A stretch of DNA of 64,000 nucleotides from Nitrospira defluvii (GTDB lineage: Bacteria; Nitrospirota; Nitrospiria; Nitrospirales; Nitrospiraceae). Under the pieces are notes generated by a model. That model saw only the letters and a program-made list of their open reading frames with translations. It had not been told where the DNA came from and did no database searches. Where the stretch lies: NCBI GenBank assembly GCA_011525625.1, contig WYAX01000023.1, positions 1-64,000 on the forward strand. Direction: 5' to 3'. The stretch's first letter is position 1. Every line of letters begins with the position of its first letter. A program made the translations under genes and the position numbers. Below, in pieces: positions 5,019-38,063 of the stretch.

Positions 5019-6419
5019 ATGTCGAAGCCTTCAGAATCGAATGCCGTGCTGGTGGCGATCCGCACCCCTCGGGTGACGGTGGAGGACGTGGATAGTTCGC
5101 TGCAAGAGCTCACCCGTCTGGTGACGACCCTCGGCTACCGCGTCGTGGGCCGTGTGACGCAAAAGCGCAGTTCCGATCGTTATGCGGCGGTCCTGGGAGA
5201 AGGGAAGCTCGCCGAATTGGCGCGATGGACCGGTGGTTCTGGAAAAGTCGAGGCGTCCTTTCGACGGTCGGCGCACAAAGCTGCGGCAAAGCACGAGGCA
5301 GAGGACGTGGATGTTCCGGAAGAATCAGACGAGGATGAATCGGATGACAATCCTGAGACGACCCCAGGCCCTGGCGAGCAGGCGCAGATTGTCATCGTGG
5401 ACTGTGATCTGTCGCCGTCCCAATTGAAAAACCTTGAACGTGCTGCCGGCGTGCCGGTGCTGGATCGTACCGGGGTCATCATTGAGATTTTCAGCCGGCA
5501 CGCGCGCACGAGAGCGGCCAGGCTGCAGGTGGAGATCGCGCGCCTCAATTATCTCGCGCCACGGTTGCGGGAAACCGGCGGCGGCAGCGAACGGCAGGGC
5601 GGGGGAGTCGGGGGCAAGGGGGCTGGAGAGACCAGTCTGGAGCTCGATAAGCGTAGAATTCGCGATCGCACGAAGGAACTTCGGGAGGAACTGGCGGCGA
5701 TCGGGGACGAGCATCAGACGCGCCGTGCCAGACGGGAACACGAATTGACGGTCGCGCTCGTGGGGTACACCAATGCCGGGAAATCCTCGCTTATGCGTGC
5801 GATGACGGGCAGCGAGGTGCTCGTGGCCGACAAGCTGTTTGCCACGCTCGATACTACGATCCGACCCTTGTATCCTGAGACGCGTCCCAAAGTGCTCCTG
5901 TCCGATACGGTGGGATTTATTAAGAAGCTTCCGCATGACCTGGTGGCCTCGTTCAAGTCGACACTGGATGAAGCGGCCAGTGCCTCGCTCTTGCTGTTTG
6001 TCGTCGATGCCTCCGATCCGTCCTTTCGCTCCCAGCTGGAGGTCACGCGGAAGGTGTTGGCCGAAGTCGGCGCCACGGATGTTCCCAGCCTGTTGGTGTT
6101 GAATAAACGCGATCGCCTCGGGCCGGAGGAGCTCGCGGCGTTGAAGGCCGAATATCCCGATGCCTTTTTTCTCTCCACGCGAAGCAAGGACGATCTGCAG
6201 GCGCTCCGCGAGAGCATCATGGGCTACTTTGAGAGCGATATGCTCGACGAGGAATTACGGATTCCGTTTACGGCTCAAAAGGTCGTGGCGGAGATCCGCG
6301 CGCGGATGCGTGTCTTGTCCGAAGCCTACGATGCCGAGGGGCTCACGCTGCGCGTACGATCGACCCCTGAGAACCTGACGGCGATCAAACAGAAGCTCGG
6401 GCGTCTTCCGAAAACATAA
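5019..6419 (+). CDS. hflX: GTPase HflX
   Basis: Ribosome-associated GTPase that binds the 50S subunit and helps split or rescue stalled ribosomes. ATG at 5019 is preferred (AAGGAAAGG just upstream). The frame also has an upstream GTG at 4911, but those 36 residues are not HflX-like. The 466-residue product has the HflX N-terminal domain (LGEGKLAEL, VPVLDRTGVII, a coiled coil with ARLQVEIARL), the glycine-rich GGGSERQGGG loop, then the G domain: GYTNAGKSSL near 250, DTVGFIKKLP, NKRD, and a C-terminal domain. An unusual acidic Glu/Asp insert (about residues 90-120, VPEESDEDESDD) lies inside the N-terminal domain. Confidence 0.95.
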   Translation: MSKPSESNAVLVAIRTPRVTVEDVDSSLQELTRLVTTLGYRVVGRVTQKRSSDRYAAVLGEGKLAELARWTGGSGKVEASFRRSAHKAAAKHEAEDVDVPEESDEDESDDNPETTPGPGEQAQIVIVDCDLSPSQLKNLERAAGVPVLDRTGVIIEIFSRHARTRAARLQVEIARLNYLAPRLRETGGGSERQGGGVGGKGAGETSLELDKRRIRDRTKELREELAAIGDEHQTRRARREHELTVALVGYTNAGKSSLMRAMTGSEVLVADKLFATLDTTIRPLYPETRPKVLLSDTVGFIKKLPHDLVASFKSTLDEAASASLLLFVVDASDPSFRSQLEVTRKVLAEVGATDVPSLLVLNKRDRLGPEELAALKAEYPDAFFLSTRSKDDLQALRESIMGYFESDMLDEELRIPFTAQKVVAEIRARMRVLSEAYDAEGLTLRVRSTPENLTAIKQKLGRLPKT

Positions 6420-27262: not shown

Positions 27263-27353
27263 GTCGCTGAATTTGCGTCGGTGGGGATTGTCGGGGTGTC
27301 ACTCTTGAAGATCAAAGTCTCGACACCATCCGGCTGGTGAAGAGGGCGTGCGA

Positions 27354-30300
27354 ATGGCGGAACCGAAAGGCGACCAACCGAAATTGCCCCTGGCTGCGTT
27401 GCTGGCTTTGCTGCTGGCGGCAGTGAGCAGCCTGATCATCTACCAGGTGCCCATCAAGACCTCCCGACCCATCGATAAGGAGGCGGAAAAGTCTGCCTCG
27501 GTTGTCCGGGATCGGGTCCAGTCCCGGCTCTGGCAGGACCCGTTCGAGGCGGTGGCGACCCATATTCAGAAGGAGAAGGCTGCCGGAGACAGGGGGCATG
27601 GGCACCATACCTCGCCGGGGCTGGTGGAAGGGGCTGACACGGCCAAGGAGGCATTTCGCTTCCGCTTGATGCCGGTGTTTGTCGATGGGAGTCCCTATGC
27701 CAGCGGTGTGGAGTCGAGATTGCGCGACCGGTATGCGCTGGTCTCGGCGCTCGGCGCAGCCGGGTATTTGCCGGAGTCCGGAGAATCCATCCGGTTCTTT
27801 GAATGGAAATCCACCGCGGGGGTGACCACGGTCGTCCCGGCCGAATGGTTTGTACCGGGGCCCAGGCTCTCCAAATCAGATCAGGTGGACGCGCCGGAGA
27901 AAGGGAGGGCCTACGATGCCCAGCCGATTCTCGTCCTGTGGCTCAAAGAGCAGGACCTTGGTGCGAAGCCGTTGCACGCGCTGACGGATCTGCTGCGTTA
28001 TCTCAAGACGGAGATGAGCACGACCCCTTCCGCCTATCGCGTATTGGGTCCCCGTACCTCCGGCTCCCTCAGTGCCATGCTGGAGGAACTCAAGCCGAAT
28101 TCCGCGGTCGAAAATCCAAATGCCGAGTGTCGCGAGGTGATTCAGCCGGTCCTGTCGCCGGTGTTGAAAGGCGCCGAATGGTATTCCTCATGGGCCACAG
28201 CCGCCGATCCGGTACTCCTGGACGAGCCTTCTGGCCGGCAGACGGACCGGCCGGTCGAGCATCGGTTCACATCCGCCTGTCTGAGCGTGATCCGCACGAT
28301 CGGCTCCGACGACGCGCTGGCGAGCGAATTAGTGCTGGAACTACAGCGCCGGAAAATCGACCTGACTGCACCGTCCGAGATGCCTCACATCGCGCTGATC
28401 TCGGAATGGGACACCCTCTACGGCCGATCCTTGCCGCGGACGTTCGTGGCGGTCGCCAATCGTTTGGCGGAAGAAGCCGCAGCGAAGAAACCCGAAGCCG
28501 CTGCACAGAAGACACCCGCTCGGACGTTGGCACAGCACATGGATGCGCTTCGTGCGGAGCAGTATCCGAACTGGGTGCACCGCTATTCCTATCTGGCCGG
28601 TCTCGATGGAGAATTGCCGCCCAAGGAGAACGGGAAGGATGCGGGCGGCGCCAAAGGCAAACCGGGCGACACGTGGCTAGGGGGTGCACCGCTGGTGGAG
28701 GATGTTCCTGTCGGCCGGAGCCAACTCGATTATCTCCGTCGCTTGGTGGAGCAGTTGAAGCAGGAGGAATCCACGTCCGACGGCGAATTCAAGGCCATCG
28801 GTGTCCTGGGGAGCGACGTCTACGACAAACTCATGATCCTGCAGGCGTTGCGAAAGAACTTCCCCCACGCGTTGTTCTTCACGACCGATCTCGACTCCCG
28901 ATTGACTCATTCGAGCCAATTGCCGTGGACGAGGAATCTTGTGGTCGCCTCGCATTTCGGCCTCGAACTTGATCCCAGGCTGCAGACGCCCATCCCGCCG
29001 TTCCGCGACAGTTATCAAACCGCACTGTTTTATTCCGTGCTGCGGGCGGTGGGGTATCTCCGGGTTTCGTCCGACAAGACCCGCCTGGAATTGCCGGACC
29101 GCACGCAATTTTCGACGGAAGTCTTGCCGCGCCTCTATGAAGTCGGCCGGCACGGTGCGATCGATCTCAGTCCGGATCCGCTCCATCGGGCGGATGCCCC
29201 TGCAAGTATCCATCTGCCTCGTCCCGATGTCGATCCGGCGAGCGGCGCACTGCGGTTGCCCTCGATTCGCGCCATCGGGCTGCTCCTGCTGGCCGCCGGT
29301 TTGATGTTCTGCTGCGCCGTCTTGATCAACAGTGAATTGTGGGTGCTGTGCCTTAGGAGTCGGGGGGGCGGACTTCCCCTGCTTTCGCTGCTGACGGGCT
29401 TCATTGCGGTCGGTTTGCTCGGCAGTGCCATGTTGGACGGCACGGGCGGGGAGCCGTTTTCATTCACCGACGGGATCAGCGTGTGGCCGACGGCAAGTCT
29501 ACGGCTATTGGCGTTTGTGCTCTGCGTCGTCTTCTTCGCCCATTCCTGGTGGCGTTTGTGGGAGAGCGATCGAGCATTGATGCGGAGATTTCGCTTGCCG
29601 CGGCTCGATGCCGTGCTGTCGCGCCCGTTCCGTTCGTGGATCGGCATTCATCGTTGGCTACCGCCTCTCGCTGGTCATGCGGAGGCACGGGAGCTCTGGC
29701 ACGAGTATCGTCTACTCGGGGCATGGCAGGAACGAGCACGGCGTGTCGTGCCTCAGGCGGCAGTGTACGGACTGTTCGGCGTCGTGTTGATGGTGCAATT
29801 CGGCTTTCCCGTCATGCCCTGTCGAGGGCAGGCCTGTTTCACGCTCAACTACATCATTCTGGGTGTGAGCGTCGTCACGATGACGCTGCTGATGTTTTAT
29901 GTGGTGGACGCCACACGCCTCTGCCGTCGGCTGATCTTCATCATGATCAAGACCACGATTGAGTGGCCGAGCCGGACGCTCGCGCGGGAAGCGAAAAAGC
30001 TTGGCGTCGATGAGGCCCACATACACGAGTGGCTCGGCGTCCAGTTTATCGCCGCACGGACGCAGGTCATCAGCACCATGATCTACTATCCGTTCGTCAT
30101 TGTGTTCCTGATGGCGGTCGCGCGCCACAGCTATTTCGACCGATGGGATTTCCCTGCGGGCTTGCTGGCGATCTTTACGCTCAACGCGCTCTATGCGTTC
30201 GGCAACGGCGTCTATCTGCGGCGTTCCGCCGAGCTGGCGAAACGGGAGGCGTTGGATCAATTGAAACGGCGGCTCAAGGACCTGGCCGACGAGCCATCCC

Positions 30301-30470
30301 TCAAACGGAACACGCGTGGTCAGGTTGAGCGCATGGTCGAGTTGATCGAACAGACACAGGAAGGCGCCTTCCTGCCGTTTACCCGCCATCCCTTGTTCGG
30401 TGCGATTGCCTTGCCGACGGGCGGCACCGGTCTGGTGTTCCTGCTGGAGTATCTGGCCACGTTATGGTGA
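27354..30470 (+). CDS. Large multi-spanning membrane protein of unknown function (1038 aa)
   Basis: One N-terminal membrane helix (LPLAALLALLLAAVSSLIIY) precedes about 600 residues predicted to be extracytoplasmic. Seven or eight further helices follow, for example AIGLLLLAAGLMFCCAVLI, LLAFVLCVVFFAHSWW, IILGVSVVTMTLLMFYVV and MIYYPFVIVFLMAVA. The soluble part has two halves with Rossmann-like features. One contains AIGVLGSDVYDKLMILQALR, then FPHALFFTTDLDSRLTHSS and PPFRDSYQTALFYSVLRA, reminiscent of type 1 periplasmic-binding folds. No enzymatic motif seen. A sensor or transport role is only a guess. ATG 27354 is preferred because GAGG lies 8 bases upstream. Confidence 0.8.
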   Translation: MAEPKGDQPKLPLAALLALLLAAVSSLIIYQVPIKTSRPIDKEAEKSASVVRDRVQSRLWQDPFEAVATHIQKEKAAGDRGHGHHTSPGLVEGADTAKEAFRFRLMPVFVDGSPYASGVESRLRDRYALVSALGAAGYLPESGESIRFFEWKSTAGVTTVVPAEWFVPGPRLSKSDQVDAPEKGRAYDAQPILVLWLKEQDLGAKPLHALTDLLRYLKTEMSTTPSAYRVLGPRTSGSLSAMLEELKPNSAVENPNAECREVIQPVLSPVLKGAEWYSSWATAADPVLLDEPSGRQTDRPVEHRFTSACLSVIRTIGSDDALASELVLELQRRKIDLTAPSEMPHIALISEWDTLYGRSLPRTFVAVANRLAEEAAAKKPEAAAQKTPARTLAQHMDALRAEQYPNWVHRYSYLAGLDGELPPKENGKDAGGAKGKPGDTWLGGAPLVEDVPVGRSQLDYLRRLVEQLKQEESTSDGEFKAIGVLGSDVYDKLMILQALRKNFPHALFFTTDLDSRLTHSSQLPWTRNLVVASHFGLELDPRLQTPIPPFRDSYQTALFYSVLRAVGYLRVSSDKTRLELPDRTQFSTEVLPRLYEVGRHGAIDLSPDPLHRADAPASIHLPRPDVDPASGALRLPSIRAIGLLLLAAGLMFCCAVLINSELWVLCLRSRGGGLPLLSLLTGFIAVGLLGSAMLDGTGGEPFSFTDGISVWPTASLRLLAFVLCVVFFAHSWWRLWESDRALMRRFRLPRLDAVLSRPFRSWIGIHRWLPPLAGHAEARELWHEYRLLGAWQERARRVVPQAAVYGLFGVVLMVQFGFPVMPCRGQACFTLNYIILGVSVVTMTLLMFYVVDATRLCRRLIFIMIKTTIEWPSRTLAREAKKLGVDEAHIHEWLGVQFIAARTQVISTMIYYPFVIVFLMAVARHSYFDRWDFPAGLLAIFTLNALYAFGNGVYLRRSAELAKREALDQLKRRLKDLADEPSLKRNTRGQVERMVELIEQTQEGAFLPFTRHPLFGAIALPTGGTGLVFLLEYLATLW

Positions 30471-30812: not shown

Positions 30813-31805
30813 TTGTTGTACGAATTGTGGTCCGTTCTTCGGGCATTCCTCCGCCATGCGGCGGGAAGACTTTTTCCTCTGGTCATCGTCGGTGTGAGTG
30901 TGGGGATTGCGTTGCTCCTGCCGGCCGGAGCCCGACAGGTTCTGTCGCTCTGGTCGCTGCTCGAACATGACAAGGTCTCACTGGTCGCGGTGGAAATGAT
31001 CCTTGCCATTTTCTTGATGGTCTGTTTCAACTATGTTCATCGTCATGTCCGGGACCGGTCGCTTGCCACGGCTGCGAGGGGTGCCGGGCTCGTCTCGTTT
31101 TTCCCCCATCCCACGCCCGAGGCGCAGCGACGTATCCTGTGCGTGAAGGTAGAGCAGGGGGCCGGCCGCACGGCCATGGTCATCGGCTCCAGCGGGTCCG
31201 GATCCCCGAGGGATCAGGTGGGAGACCTGTCTTCGGTGCTCGACACCTGTTTGGAGGCGAAGGTGTTCCTGGCGAATCCTTTTCGTCAGGATGCCCAGGC
31301 GCGGATGGGGGCGCTTGGTCGTTCCGCCGATGCGCTTCCGGCGTTTCGCGAAGAGGTCCGGCAAAGTATTGCCTTGCTGAAGCGGTTGAAGGCCATGGGG
31401 AAGGTTGTGAAGTTGAAGCTGTACGCCGAGCCTCCGCTGGTGAAGCTCGTGATCCTCGGTGACTCCATCTGGCTTCAACATCACCATGCCGAGCTGAATG
31501 GTCGGCACATGCCGGAGTATGTGTTGCAACGGAACGGCCGGACGCACGGCTTCTACTCATTCTATGCGCACTATTTCATGGAGCGATGGGAACAGTGCGA
31601 CTGTCCCGAGTATGATCTGGATACCGACGAACTGGTGTATCGCACTCGAGCGGGGCGGGAAATCCGGCGCGAACCGGTGGAAATCAGCGCAGCGCAGCGT
31701 CGATCTGCCGTCGACGGCACGCCGTCGCCTCACGTTTCCGATGCGTTCCAGTTGCGCCACGCGCCAGGCCCCTACCTCCCGGTTCGAGGGTATGGCCTCG
31801 ACTAG
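30813..31805 (+). CDS. Membrane-anchored phospholipase-D-like protein
   Basis: 330 residues. Two N-terminal membrane helices (FPLVIVGVSVGIALLL, VSLVAVEMILAIFLMVCFNYV) precede a cytoplasmic domain with a PLD-like pattern: VFLANPF, an FREEVRQSIALLKRLKAMG helix, VKLKLYAEPPLVKLVILGDSIWLQ, then FYAHYFMERWEQ. The catalytic HxK(x)4D of true PLD is not evident, so it may bind rather than cleave phosphodiesters. The TTG start follows AAGGTG; no ATG fits. Same strand as the large membrane protein, 342 bases away, and possibly linked to it in function. Confidence 0.6.
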   Translation: MLYELWSVLRAFLRHAAGRLFPLVIVGVSVGIALLLPAGARQVLSLWSLLEHDKVSLVAVEMILAIFLMVCFNYVHRHVRDRSLATAARGAGLVSFFPHPTPEAQRRILCVKVEQGAGRTAMVIGSSGSGSPRDQVGDLSSVLDTCLEAKVFLANPFRQDAQARMGALGRSADALPAFREEVRQSIALLKRLKAMGKVVKLKLYAEPPLVKLVILGDSIWLQHHHAELNGRHMPEYVLQRNGRTHGFYSFYAHYFMERWEQCDCPEYDLDTDELVYRTRAGREIRREPVEISAAQRRSAVDGTPSPHVSDAFQLRHAPGPYLPVRGYGLD

Positions 31806-33137: not shown

Positions 33138-33181
33138 ATCGGGTGTCATGGCGCGTGACCACAGGCTGTGCCGAATTCGAA

Positions 33182-33211
33182 GGCGTATCGTTTTCGATAC
33201 GCCGGCGTATG
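33182..33211. terminator. Hairpin downstream of nnrS
   Basis: GGCGTATCG (33182-33190), TTTT loop, CGATACGCC (33195-33203): a perfect 9-bp stem 45 bases past the stop. The second arm also forms a 14-bp palindrome with the following bases (ATACGCCGGCGTAT, 33198-33211). No T-tract follows, so it may be a terminator without one, or a protein site. Confidence 0.45.
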
Positions 33212-33398
33212 CGCGGAGACACGAGGGCCTCCCGCATGTCCGTGCGAAACAATTACGTGTATTGCAATCGCCTGAATAAAATGAGCAGGACTTGTCGTCC
33301 ATCTTCGGGTATAACCTTTGCTGCCTCACCGAGTGAGAAGATGCGCAACGAATCTGTGCGCTGCGCGTGGCAACCTGTTTCGGTTCGTGAGGAAGCCC

Positions 33399-35135
33399 AT
33401 GGCCAAAAAGAAATCGAGCTCATCAACGAGAGGAAAAAAACCCTCGCGCCGGTCGTCTGAACGGAAGGCGTCTGATACCTCCTCCCCAGCCGGTCCGCAG
33501 CCTGCTCCAACCCAGGCCTTCGAAGCCGCCGTCCCGACGGAGACCATCCCGCATCCGAAGCCGACCGTCGACAACGATCACGAGGAGCGGCTTGCGAAGA
33601 ATCTCATCAGGACGGTCATCGCGCTTCCGCTCCTCGACAAGCTGAACCATGAAACCAAGCAGCGACTCGCGGATCCCTCCCGCCGTCCGATCCTCTATGA
33701 GGTGATCATCGATTTGAATCTGGAATACCCGAAAGGCCGGGAAGCGGCGCGAGACTGGGTGTTCAAGTCGGTCGAGGACCTGCTCTCACGCCAGGGGCCG
33801 GACCGGGCCGGCCAACGGCTCGATCGCAAGAAAAGCGAGTTCAACGAACAATACATCTTTGCCTCCCTTGAAGGGCGCGTGATTCGCGAACTGGTCGACT
33901 GGGATGGGAAGGAAAAACCCGATGTGCTCGGCAAGGACGGGAAGCCGCGTAAGGCGCGGGCGATATACCAGATCTGGGAAGACTTCAAGCTGAAGGCATT
34001 TATCACCAGTTCCATCACCACCGTGAAAGCCGATGCGGCGCGAGTGGCCTTCACAGCGTTGGGCGACAACATCGTCTGGGCCGTGGTCGATTCCGGGATT
34101 CAGGGAGACCATCGGCATTTCGGCGCACACCAGAACCTTGCCGGTCAGGTCGAGGAATGGCATTACGATTTTACGGGTGGGGCTGACCCGAAGCAGAGCG
34201 CCTTGGTGGACGGCATGGGCCACGGTACCCATGTGGCCGGCATCATCGCGGGAGAGATTCCTGCCGATCCGACGCTGCGGGCGGGCGAATCACATCCGGA
34301 CATTCTCGCCTATTCCCGATCGCTCAGGCCCGATGGAGACCAGACGGAGCGAGAAGTGGTGTACGAGCAGATCAAGGCGCCCTGCATTGCCGGTATGGCC
34401 TCGCGGTGCAAGCTGGTGAGCTTGAAGGTGTTGAACGAGGGCGGCGAGGGGAGTGTGAGTAACATTATTGCCGCGCTCGGACATATTCAGCGCGTCAACA
34501 GTTTCGGGCGGCATATTCGCATTCATGGTGTGAATCTCAGTGTCGGCTATCCCTTCGAGCCCGAATGGTTTGCCTGCGGGCAAAGCCAACTCTGTGTGGA
34601 GGTGAATCGCCTCGTGCGCTCCGGCGTCGTCGTGGTGGTGGCGGCCGGCAATTCCGGATACGGAGTGCTGTCCACGGATTTTACGGGGCTCCGTTCGGCC
34701 GGAATCGGCCTGACCATCAACGATCCGGGCAATGCCGACCTCGCGATCACCGTCGGATCGACGCATCGGAACATGCCGCACATTTACGGGGTGTCGTATT
34801 TTTCCTCGAAGGGACCCACGGGCGACGGACGCCTGAAGCCGGATTTGGTCGCGCCGGGAGAGAAAATTCTTTCCTGCGCGGCGGGGCAGATGGAGAAAGA
34901 CATTCAGGAGAAAATCGAGAAGGACGTGACCTATCTCGAACATTCCGGGACGAGCATGGCGGCGCCGCATGTGTCCGGGGTTATCGCGGCATTCTTGTCC
35001 GTCCGCCGCGAATTCATCGGGCAACCGGAACGGATCAAAGAGATCTTTGTCTCGACCGCAACGGATCTTCGTCGGGAACGGTACTTTCAAGGGGCCGGAC
35101 TCGTCGATCTGATGCGCGCGATTCAATCCATCTAG
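33399..35135 (+). CDS. Cytoplasmic S8 (subtilisin-like) serine peptidase
   Basis: 578 residues. The N-terminus is Lys/Arg/Ser-rich and disordered (MAKKKSSSSTRGKKPSRRSS) with no signal peptide, so it probably acts in the cytoplasm. A domain of about 150 residues follows, then the peptidase core: VWAVVDSGIQGDH (catalytic Asp), GMGHGTHVAGIIAG (His), VVVVAAGNSGYG (oxyanion Asn), HSGTSMAAPHVSGV (Ser). The triad is complete. Start ATG 33399 after GTGAGGA. The hydrolase gene starts 17 bases downstream with a strong ribosome site, so they form an operon. Similar peptidases occur in bacterial conflict systems; that role is inferred here. Confidence 0.9.
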   Translation: MAKKKSSSSTRGKKPSRRSSERKASDTSSPAGPQPAPTQAFEAAVPTETIPHPKPTVDNDHEERLAKNLIRTVIALPLLDKLNHETKQRLADPSRRPILYEVIIDLNLEYPKGREAARDWVFKSVEDLLSRQGPDRAGQRLDRKKSEFNEQYIFASLEGRVIRELVDWDGKEKPDVLGKDGKPRKARAIYQIWEDFKLKAFITSSITTVKADAARVAFTALGDNIVWAVVDSGIQGDHRHFGAHQNLAGQVEEWHYDFTGGADPKQSALVDGMGHGTHVAGIIAGEIPADPTLRAGESHPDILAYSRSLRPDGDQTEREVVYEQIKAPCIAGMASRCKLVSLKVLNEGGEGSVSNIIAALGHIQRVNSFGRHIRIHGVNLSVGYPFEPEWFACGQSQLCVEVNRLVRSGVVVVVAAGNSGYGVLSTDFTGLRSAGIGLTINDPGNADLAITVGSTHRNMPHIYGVSYFSSKGPTGDGRLKPDLVAPGEKILSCAAGQMEKDIQEKIEKDVTYLEHSGTSMAAPHVSGVIAAFLSVRREFIGQPERIKEIFVSTATDLRRERYFQGAGLVDLMRAIQSI

Positions 35136-35152
35136 CAAGGGAGGAGGGTGCG

Positions 35153-36469
35153 ATGGAACAGTTATCGGGGTTTCCGTATTTTCCCGTGCAGTTTACGAAG
35201 GAGGCTGCCGTCCACAATCAGGCCGACGTCGCCGCCCTGCAGGACTTCCTCAAACGGGAGGGCACGACCGATCTGATCGTCATCTCGCATGGCTGGAATA
35301 ACAACATGGAGGAGGCCAAGGCACTCTACGCCAGCTTGTTTGCGAATGTCCGCTCGCTGCTCGATGCCGGCACGTTCGCGACGCTCGCGAACCGGAAATG
35401 GGCTGTTCTCGGCGTGTTGTGGCCGTCCAAGAAATTCGAGGAGAAGGAGCTGATTCCCAGCGGCGCCGCCGGAGCCGGGTCAGTCGTCGGCGTGGCGGCC
35501 TTGAAGGCGAAGCTGGAAGGGCTCAAGGGCGTCTTCGATGCACCGCAGGCCGACCGGACGCTCGACGAGCTGCAACGGCTCTTGCCGAAGCTGGAGGACA
35601 GCACCTCCGCGCAAAAAGAATTTGTCGATAAAGTCCGCTCGCTGGTTCAGACGCACACGCTGGAAGCGGAGGATGGGTCGGAGGTCTTCTTCAAAGTGCC
35701 ATCGGGCGAGTTGTTGGAAAAGTTGCGCAAGCCGGTCTCCTTTACGGTAGCCCGCCCGCCGGCGAATGCCGGTGGGGCGGCAGGAATCGGCACCGGGGGC
35801 GCCGCCGGATTAGGGGAGTTTTTCAGCGGGATCTGGTCCGGCGTCCGGAACGCCCTCAATTACACCACCTACTATCAAATGAAGGAGCGAGCAGGATTGG
35901 TGGGGGCCAATGGGGTGAATCCGATCCTTCGCGCCATTCAAGCCGCCAGGCCGGACGTGAGACTGCATCTGATCGGTCACAGTTTCGGTGGGCGCCTCGT
36001 GGCCGCCGCCGTCGCCGGTGTCGATGATGCGACGCTGCTTCGCGTGCAGACGCTCTCCCTCTTGCAAGCCGCGTTTTCTCATTACGGATTTGCGGAAAAA
36101 TGGGACGGCACGCACAACGGATTCTTCCACCGAGTGATCAGCGGCCGAGCGGTTGCAGGCCCGACGATTATCACCTGCACGGCGAACGACAAGGCCGTCG
36201 GTCTCGCCTATCCCATTGCCTCCCTGTTGGCCGGTCAGGTGGCGGCCGGAATCGGGGACAAAAACGACAAGTACGGGGGTATCGGCCGCAACGGAGCTCA
36301 GAAGACCCCTGGCACTGTGGACCTGACTCTGCTTGAGTCGACCGGTTCCTATCAGTTGACGAACGGCATGATGCACAACCTTTCGACCGATCGACTCATC
36401 AAGGATCACGGGGACGTCGCCAATAGGGAAGTCGCGTTTGCCGTCGTGTCGGCTATCTCGGCCGCGTGA
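35153..36469 (+). CDS. Alpha/beta hydrolase paired with the subtilase
   Basis: 438 residues, no signal peptide. LIVISHGWNNNMEEAK forms the oxyanion region, with a large insertion between about 100 and 230 rich in Glu/Lys and Gly/Ala (GGAAGIGTGGAAGLG). The nucleophile elbow is LIGHSFGGRLVAAAV. A late MMHNL could hold the catalytic His. A lipase- or esterase-like role is likely but the substrate is unknown. GGAGGAGGG precedes ATG. The constant pairing with the peptidase suggests that one activates or processes the other; this is inference. Confidence 0.75.
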   Translation: MEQLSGFPYFPVQFTKEAAVHNQADVAALQDFLKREGTTDLIVISHGWNNNMEEAKALYASLFANVRSLLDAGTFATLANRKWAVLGVLWPSKKFEEKELIPSGAAGAGSVVGVAALKAKLEGLKGVFDAPQADRTLDELQRLLPKLEDSTSAQKEFVDKVRSLVQTHTLEAEDGSEVFFKVPSGELLEKLRKPVSFTVARPPANAGGAAGIGTGGAAGLGEFFSGIWSGVRNALNYTTYYQMKERAGLVGANGVNPILRAIQAARPDVRLHLIGHSFGGRLVAAAVAGVDDATLLRVQTLSLLQAAFSHYGFAEKWDGTHNGFFHRVISGRAVAGPTIITCTANDKAVGLAYPIASLLAGQVAAGIGDKNDKYGGIGRNGAQKTPGTVDLTLLESTGSYQLTNGMMHNLSTDRLIKDHGDVANREVAFAVVSAISAA

Positions 36470-36609
36470 ACGTGAAGCGAGGGACCGGACCGTAGGCAGA
36501 GCGGAGTGATCGTCGCACGCTCTGTGCTCGTTCAGTCCGAGGAGTCGCGGCGGCGCACGGGCAGGATGGTCCCGGCGAATGAGCGAGATGCGCTGGGGGG
36601 ATGTCGCCT

Positions 36610-36812
36610 TAGCAGGCTGCGGAAACACTCGTATGTCGCCCAATAGGCAAGGATCGACTCATGCGCCGTATCGATAGCAAAATACCCTGCAGGATACGCA
36701 AAAACGCCGTCCAGCAAGGCCGCAGCGAGCGACGTGGCGAATCGTACTCACGTTGTACGGTGAGCCGCTGCAGGATGCGAGCAGGCCGCCGGCGGACGTT
36801 TTCCGCATCCGG
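36610..36812. repeat. Dispersed repeat, copy B (core 36688-36812 plus outer arm)
   Basis: The 125-bp core has inverted ends (TGCAGGATACGCAAAAACG and CGTTTTCCGCATCCGG) and ends exactly at the stop codon of the coiled-coil gene (36813-36815). It shares GCCGTCCAGCAAGGC with copy A, and the outer arm 36610-36687 begins TAGCAGG..GCGGAAACACTCGT as in A. It occupies most of the 343-base gap between convergent genes; 36470-36609 shows nothing else. Confidence 0.8.
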
Positions 36813-38063
36813 CTAGAGTTCTTCGCCGTATTTCAGGAAGTGCTGTTCCTTGGCACCGGCAATCCAATTGTCATGGCGGATGCGGTCGGGGAATGTGTTG
36901 AGTTCCGACGCCATCTGTTCGACGTCTTGCTCCTTCCATTCGGCGATCTGGCGAAAGGTAAACATGCCCATACGATTGAGCACCCGTTCCATCACGGGTC
37001 CGATGCCATGGATTTGCTTGAGATCGTCCTTTTGCATCGTCCGATGTTTCCCCGTGCCGTGTCCGGTCGTCGAGTTGCCGTGCATGCCCGAGTCGGTCGT
37101 GCCGACCGATTTAGCCTGGGCCCCATGCCGCTGGGCCACGCGATATTCCACGAGTCGTTTGCGTAGGGCGGCGATCTCTTCCTCCCGTTCGCTGACATCC
37201 ATGACCCGTCGCTCCTCCGCCTCGCGGAGCGCAATTTCCTTTTTCTCCACTTCGCTGCGGAAGACTTCCAGCTCTTCCACGGTCGCCCGCAGCCGCTGGA
37301 TGTCCTGATCACGCTGCTCCACCGTTTCCGTGAAACGCGCGAGATCTTCCTGATTCTGGGTCCGCAGGCGGGTCAATTCCGCCTCGATGTCGGCGATGCG
37401 AGCCTGTTGACGGTCGAGTTCCTGCTCCTTGCTGCGGAGCGTGGAGGCGGTCTGTGCGCGTGTCTGCTCCAGTTCCTGTTCCAGCCGGCTGCTTCGCTCC
37501 CGGAACGGTTCCAACTCTTCGGTGCGTGCCCGGAGACGAGCGATCTCGGCATCTTTCGGCGCCAGCTGTTCTACCCAGGTTTTGAGGGTGGCGATTTCCT
37601 GGTCGCGGCTGATGAGCACGTCTTCGGCATTTTCCATCTGGGCCTGCATTTCGGCAAACCCTGCCTGTTGCCCCTTGAACTTGTTTTCGGCTTCTTCGAC
37701 TTCCCGCCGGAGTGTGTCGCGCTCCCGTTCGATAGCATGGAGGCGCACGCCCTTCTCCCGCACGTCGGTTTGCAAGGCCGTCAGCTGTTCCACCTTTGTC
37801 GCAAGGTCGGCGGTCAGATCCTTGAGCGCCGCTTCGGAGGTGATCATCTTTCCTTCCAGCATCTGCACGGCGGAGGTGCGAACCTTCAACTCATGGTTGA
37901 GCGTGTCCAATTCGTGTTCGCGTCCCCGGAGCCGGGTGGCAATCTCGGACAACTGCTGGCGTTTTTCGGACGTGGCGAAACTGCGCAGCAGCCACCCCAT
38001 CATCACCCCGATGGTTGCCGCCACCAGTAAGCATCCGATCATTTGCAGTATTAAGGCTCCCAT
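36813..38063 (-). CDS. Membrane-anchored coiled-coil protein with C-terminal helix-hairpin-helix
   Basis: 416 residues. One N-terminal membrane helix (MGALILQMIGCLLVAATIGVMM) anchors a long coiled coil (about residues 30-320, regular Glu/Arg/Leu heptads). A Gly/His-rich linker follows, then an HHH-like DNA-binding motif: DLKQIHGIGPVMERVLNRMG and FRQIAEWKEQDVEQM. Similar helix-hairpin-helix tails occur in membrane proteins of unknown role. A tether between membrane and DNA is possible. It lies 4 bases after the OmpA/BON gene, in one operon. Confidence 0.75.
   Translation of the reverse strand: MGALILQMIGCLLVAATIGVMMGWLLRSFATSEKRQQLSEIATRLRGREHELDTLNHELKVRTSAVQMLEGKMITSEAALKDLTADLATKVEQLTALQTDVREKGVRLHAIERERDTLRREVEEAENKFKGQQAGFAEMQAQMENAEDVLISRDQEIATLKTWVEQLAPKDAEIARLRARTEELEPFRERSSRLEQELEQTRAQTASTLRSKEQELDRQQARIADIEAELTRLRTQNQEDLARFTETVEQRDQDIQRLRATVEELEVFRSEVEKKEIALREAEERRVMDVSEREEEIAALRKRLVEYRVAQRHGAQAKSVGTTDSGMHGNSTTGHGTGKHRTMQKDDLKQIHGIGPVMERVLNRMGMFTFRQIAEWKEQDVEQMASELNTFPDRIRHDNWIAGAKEQHFLKYGEEL

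Follow-up and report, generated by a model that had tools for sequence, protein, structure and literature searches.

A subtilase and an alpha/beta hydrolase encoded side by side in Nitrospira defluvii form an inseparable, conserved two-gene module. The genes were examined within a stretch of 64,000 nucleotides (positions 1 to 64,000 of contig WYAX01000023.1, hereafter the window) from a Nitrospira genome of 4.6 Mb. We consider it moderately probable that the pair is a compact, mobile conflict module, probably anti-phage, in which a protease zymogen located in the cytoplasm is coupled to a latent lipase or esterase effector. The arrangement looks like a kill switch in which a cutter releases a lipase, because the two genes occur side by side in six phyla and antiviral gene clusters contain relatives of both.

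The subtilase and the hydrolase

The S8 subtilase gene occupies positions 33399–35135 of the forward strand (ATG at 33399, TAG at 35135) and encodes a cytoplasmic, zymogen-like protein of 578 aa, of which residues 222–567 belong to the Pfam family Peptidase_S8 (E 1.9e-42). The catalytic residues Asp231 (codon 34089–34091), His275 (34221–34223) and Ser519 (34953–34955, within GTSMAAPH), all on the forward strand, are invariant, with no variation across 16 homologues. Residues 71–200 (33609–33998, forward strand) constitute a pro-domain that resembles the propeptides of pro-subtilisins and is modeled by AlphaFold with a pLDDT of 75–93. In VIA-align, the subtilase model matched two pro-subtilisin structures that include the propeptide, 3afg (Z 22.6) and 3whi (Z 21.9), with alignments beginning at residues 54 and 98, respectively. 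Residues 1–69 are predicted to be disordered and the model is poor in the C-terminal half, beyond residue 416. The preliminary description had noted a complete S8 peptidase devoid of a signal peptide and this holds: over the first 45 residues the Kyte-Doolittle maximum (12-residue window) is -0.02 for the subtilase and 0.62 for the hydrolase, compared with 3.07 by the same measure for a membrane-anchored OmpA/BON neighbor, and neither protein of the pair has a signal-peptide-like N-terminus.

The hydrolase gene (35153–36469, forward strand; 438 aa, DUF900-like) begins after a gap of 17 bp (35136–35152) which contains, as first noticed from the sequence, a ribosome binding site of its own (GGAGG, 35140–35144, forward strand, 8 bases before the ATG). 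The protein matches Pfam DUF900 over its N-terminal and core parts with an E-value of 5.5e-6, a match that passes the Pfam cut-off. Its nucleophile Ser277 (GHSFGG; codon 35981–35983) and the candidate catalytic residues Asp346 (36188–36190) and His419 (36407–36409), encoded on the same strand, are invariant, being unchanged in 18 homologues and in both the S8-linked and the C25-linked clades; Asp346 and His419 are the putative partners of the serine in a catalytic triad.

According to AlphaFold and VIA-align, the hydrolase has an alpha/beta hydrolase core of the lipase type (Nir1/Nir2 DDHD, Z 13.8–13.3; LipA, 13.2; Tle4, 12.1; Tle3, 11.7), while Foldseek alone gave no significant PDB match (best E 1.6e-3). 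The similarity to Tle4 and Tle3 could be taken to mean that the pair is delivered as payload by a secretion system or a contractile injection system and consists of a phospholipase effector similar to the Tle proteins of T6SS and a processing protease. A Tle1-like protein adjoining one pair of a sister S8 branch, and plasmid neighbors that are peptidoglycan hydrolases apparently without signal peptides, point in the same direction. Nevertheless, generic lipases reach equal Z scores, the genes seen beside the pair included no VgrG, PAAR or immunity gene, and the family is present in Actinomycetota and Cyanobacteriota, all of which make a role as an injected payload very improbable.

The large insertion reported earlier for the GHSFGG hydrolase is a genuine and family-specific feature. 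It spans residues 94–243 (35432–35881, forward strand; about 150 aa), a site where solitary DUF900-type relatives from the same phylum have 5–33 residues; it is absent from DUF900-type relatives without an adjoining subtilase of the same family and occurs in all protease-paired hydrolases, with a WPS-to-GHS distance of 163–206 residues where both motifs could be identified. Two segments of the insertion are modeled with pLDDT <50 and are candidate cleavage regions: loop 1 (residues 94–111; 35432–35485, forward strand), comprising the LIPxGAA region, and the Gly/Ala-rich loop 2 (residues 198–223; 35744–35821, forward strand). The LIPxGAA motif is found in many sequences; loop 2 varies in length (15–39 residues) and its G215 is kept in 94% of sequences. 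Conservation of the loops is otherwise modest, and no conserved cleavage motif was demonstrated in them. In the monomeric model the insertion lies after a core strand at the edge of the active site, a topology which suggests that the loops may lie over it. The proposal made at the outset that the insertion is the cleavage-sensitive part of the hydrolase is plausible, because it is universal in the protease-paired proteins, missing where there is no such subtilase and equipped with two predicted disordered loops.

Occurrence of the pair and its genomic setting

Conservation of the pair across genomes, proposed beforehand as a check, is now well documented, with near-perfect co-occurrence in both directions. 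Genome contigs and plasmids yielded 31 intact pairs, with the S8 gene first and both genes on the same strand in all of them, distributed among Nitrospirota, Bacteroidota, Acidobacteriota (including Thermoanaerobaculia), Pseudomonadota, Actinomycetota and Cyanobacteriota; three further pairs that are cut or disrupted (L057, L064, L095) are outside this count. The homologues are not mostly solitary, nor do they sit in housekeeping contexts without co-occurrence: the sole orphan among intact S8-clade hydrolases (L056) is located on a 6-kb contig and has the shortest loop 2, of 15 residues. The strong subtilase matches in the Nitrospira family number eight, as do the full-length hydrolase matches; they come from the same genomes and adjoin each other. 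Among 120 Hymenobacter genomes, 10 have the subtilase and these 10 also have the hydrolase, of which one further copy is a relic. The subtilase and hydrolase trees are closely correlated (Mantel r 0.91; 0 of 2000 permutations as high), and both genes are under purifying selection (dN/dS 0.09–0.14 against six orthologues). The intergenic gap is usually 14–17 bp and reaches 206–231 bp in three sister genomes (L042, L100, L103), where it holds a sequence similar in appearance to a dispersed repeat of about 160 bp. This repeat lies just 3' of the hydrolase gene in the window (36660–36818) and has at least 44 copies in the genome.

The pair is accessory, mobile and horizontally spread. In the window it sits in a cargo slot of variable content, flanked by NnrS and a coiled-coil/HHH gene (33138–36812). 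At this slot the 11 pair-less congeners examined have a gap of 65–111 bp, a gene resembling an exonuclease, an M64 peptidase or different cargo. The M64 peptidase (635 aa, with a fungal-lectin-like part and preceded by a small gene) shares the slot with or without the pair; it is upstream of the pair in L101 and L103, and lies at 5102–7575 in L105. Large plasmids of Rhizobium, Sinorhizobium and Rhodococcus also carry the pair, in three copies in the case of pRHL1. Hydrolase relatives were found neither in IMG/VR viral contigs nor in phage genomes and subtilase relatives were not found in phage genomes, so the pair is not evidently phage-borne.

The immediate neighbors in the window are dnaE, NnrS, OmpA/BON, purH and purD, and the window itself was rejected as a defence island. 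Most S8-clade pairs elsewhere are likewise surrounded by housekeeping genes or genes for secreted enzymes rather than defence genes, and in most of these loci no sensor gene is linked to the pair. Such surroundings, and the metabolic neighbors of many relatives, would suit an ordinary stress or nutrient operon combining cytoplasmic proteolysis with lipid or ester turnover, with no immune role. This reading is improbable in view of the patchy presence of the pair at an otherwise empty slot, its carriage on plasmids, and its distribution over six phyla with exchange of partners towards caspase/CHAT-STAND and Avs1a-type systems.

Other genes in these regions were recorded. Upstream of the pair in the window are a 1040-aa gene (27348–30470) and a 330-aa gene (30813–31805), both without Pfam or PADLOC matches; they are outside the module, since pair-less genomes have them too (the former in all pair-less congeners with a complete region, the latter in many). 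On three rhizobial plasmids, S8-hydrolase or S8-MBL pairs have DUF3616 genes in their vicinity (L061, 14338–15372; L062, 5517–6422; L131, 6079–7161). Multidomain proteins that degrade peptidoglycan adjoin the pair on plasmids (L059, 3602–8073; L061, 11503–12669; L062, 6547–8109), with the domain combinations M23+GH25+DUF4185, C39+GH19, amidase+glucosaminidase and DUF2272+SH3; in several of them the first domain is at the extreme N-terminus, which suggests that they have no signal peptide.

Links to conflict systems and a proposed mechanism

The preliminary description compared the pair with proteolytically triggered effectors of bacterial conflict systems and proposed a check for association with defence islands. 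The comparison is well supported by the pairing itself and by the C25/C14-caspase and Avs1a/LmuA-type links of the relatives, and not by the neighborhood in the window; the island association applies to some relatives (with CHAT/caspase-nSTAND1-WD40, Pycsar or SIR2_2 genes) and fails for the window and most S8-clade loci.

Within the S8-linked group, a SIR2-caspase fusion is the next gene after the pair in two Nitrospira genomes (C14 type; L102, 10647–12878, 743 aa; L103, 10770–12914, 714 aa, the latter with a PADLOC match to SIR2-type pAgo partners), and a second hydrolase and a SIR2 protein come after the pair in Zoogloea and Aromatoleum. Four of 24 loci were seen to have a SIR2_2 gene no more than 4 kb from the pair versus 0.04 expected, a figure that comes from two lineages and from a family picked after it had been seen. 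PADLOC also gave candidate matches to MkoA-like and PDC-S02 among the neighbors, each at a single locus and with no background set, and they carry little weight.

A divergent clade of the hydrolases pairs with C25 peptidases, which have the caspase fold, and with CHAT-nSTAND1 or nSTAND1-WD40 proteins (in Nostoc, Planktothrix, Sinorhizobium terangae and cyanobacterial genomes). Caspase-fold C25 or CHAT proteins stand beside hydrolase relatives at L065, L116, L125 and L126, and one relative (L127, G590) pairs with a C14-caspase-nSTAND1-WD40 protein. For the second genes of L117 and L118, a C25 assignment is unsupported (no Pfam match), CHAT alone being secure.

The subtilases have links of their own. 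In a sister S8 branch, carried by plasmids from S. meliloti, R. phaseoli, Methylorubrum and Miltoncostaea, the subtilase gene is followed, in the same gene order, by one for an MBL-fold hydrolase. These MBL partners match the PADLOC model for LmuA with E-values of 2e-46 to 7e-53 and that for Avs1a with 1e-28 to 4e-33. Just upstream of the S8-MBL pair in Methylorubrum are a Pycsar cyclase and PycTIR; the row on plasmid pCMU01 (L132, 1–6025) reads Pycsar cyclase, E2-domain protein, PycTIR, S8 subtilase and Avs1a/LmuA-type MBL hydrolase. The sister branch scores 319–377 bits, and generic S8 proteins no more than 75. In the S8 tree a clade with support 0.92 unites the sister branch with the hydrolase-linked S8 proteins and leaves outside the generic Nitrospira S8 proteins sampled, a comparison set drawn from a single bacterial family. 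Support for monophyly of the hydrolase-linked S8 proteins by themselves is weak (0.31).

From these data we infer the following steps for the subtilase-hydrolase module, together with their order, substrate and trigger. The N-terminal pro-domain would keep the subtilase off until a cue produced by infection or damage relieves the inhibition. The active subtilase would then cut one or both disordered loops of the hydrolase insertion, and the freed hydrolase would attack a lipid or ester, probably in the membrane, such that the cell is stopped or killed.

The roles could also be reversed within a conflict module, with the hydrolase sensing or restraining (for instance by binding or modifying) and a broad subtilase killing by degradation of host or phage proteins. 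Pairing and co-evolution are compatible with either direction, subtilases are often broad in specificity, and IetS of the IetAS system is an S8 defence component with weak similarity to the window subtilase. We regard this arrangement as unlikely, given that the MBL hydrolases paired with the sister S8 branch have relatives that are switched on by their own partner proteases (PMC12799240), that the insertion is specific to protease-paired hydrolases, and that the hydrolase retains its full predicted catalytic triad with a dN/dS of about 0.1.

The pair may represent the stand-alone form of an immune class that has gone unrecognized, in which a dedicated subfamily of S8 pro-subtilases in the cytoplasm activates interchangeable latent effectors (the alpha/beta hydrolase here, the Avs1a/LmuA-type MBL protein in the sister branch) and gating extends beyond nucleases to a lipase-like attacker of the membrane. 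We give this broader proposal an even chance of being correct. Were it true, the proteases known to activate immunity would include subtilases besides trypsins and caspases, and the gated effectors would include a lipase-like enzyme.

Comparison with known systems

IetAS, composed of the subtilase IetS and the ATPase IetA, is a point of comparison since the window S8 protein matches the PADLOC model for IetS (E 8.9e-13). The score of 30.8 bits compares with a cut-off of 900, the assignment was rejected, and the genes next to the pair include no ATPase, either in the window or at the S8-clade loci inspected. The hydrolase is like the DUF900 hydrolases in its core, and it differs by its insertion of about 150 aa from those DUF900-type relatives that lack an adjoining subtilase of the same family. 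With the T6SS Tle phospholipases, the DDHD phospholipases and Bacillus LipA it shares a lipase-type core (Z 11.7–13.8), but identity is about 10–14% and neither a common insertion nor a common export context was shown. Open-access main texts on S8 proteases combined with a hydrolase, caspase or MBL protein in defence contained no S8/alpha-beta-hydrolase pair.

Caspase-bearing VMAP systems always have a neighboring alpha/beta hydrolase (Kaur et al., 2020; PMC7159879). The module resembles this MoxR-vWA (VMAP) arrangement in having a hydrolase beside a peptidase, and its relatives adjoin C14-caspase, C25 and CHAT-nSTAND1-WD40 proteins; the likeness is drawn from the published description rather than from the published hydrolase sequences. 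In the window, by contrast, the peptidase is an S8 protein outside the caspase superfamily and has no STAND partner, and no MoxR, vWA or VMAP gene is named among the annotated neighbors of the pair.

The nearest parallel in mechanism is offered by the pro-nucleases. HamM is opened by its partner protease, which cuts each of two disordered insertions at one site, and the Avs1a/LmuA MBL family is also activated by partner proteases (PMC12799240). The same study predicts that non-nuclease enzyme classes are activated by proteases in immunity as well, with protease co-evolution and insertions that block the active site as hallmarks (PMC12799240). Differences from these systems are that the effector in the window is an alpha/beta hydrolase instead of an MBL-fold nuclease, the MBL partner being confined to the sister S8 branch; that a pro-domain-bearing S8 subtilase takes the place of the trypsin-like or caspase proteases of HamM and canu; and that no sensor is fused or linked to the pair in the window, for which gating and defence are what we infer. 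On the other hand, like HamM, Avs1a, LmuA and RTasMBL with their trypsin-like proteases and the caspase-nuclease canu (PMC12799240), the window pair joins a protease to an adjoining, co-evolving and presumably latent hydrolytic enzyme, and its hydrolase has two predicted disordered loops (low pLDDT) in a family-specific insertion. The MBL family of that study is the very partner found in the sister branch of the window subtilase. The shared subfamilies link the caspase/alpha-beta-hydrolase pairing known from surveys to the experimentally studied pro-nuclease pairs. The first hallmark, co-evolution with a protease, is present in the pair described here, and its dual disordered insertions are consistent with the second (PMC12799240).
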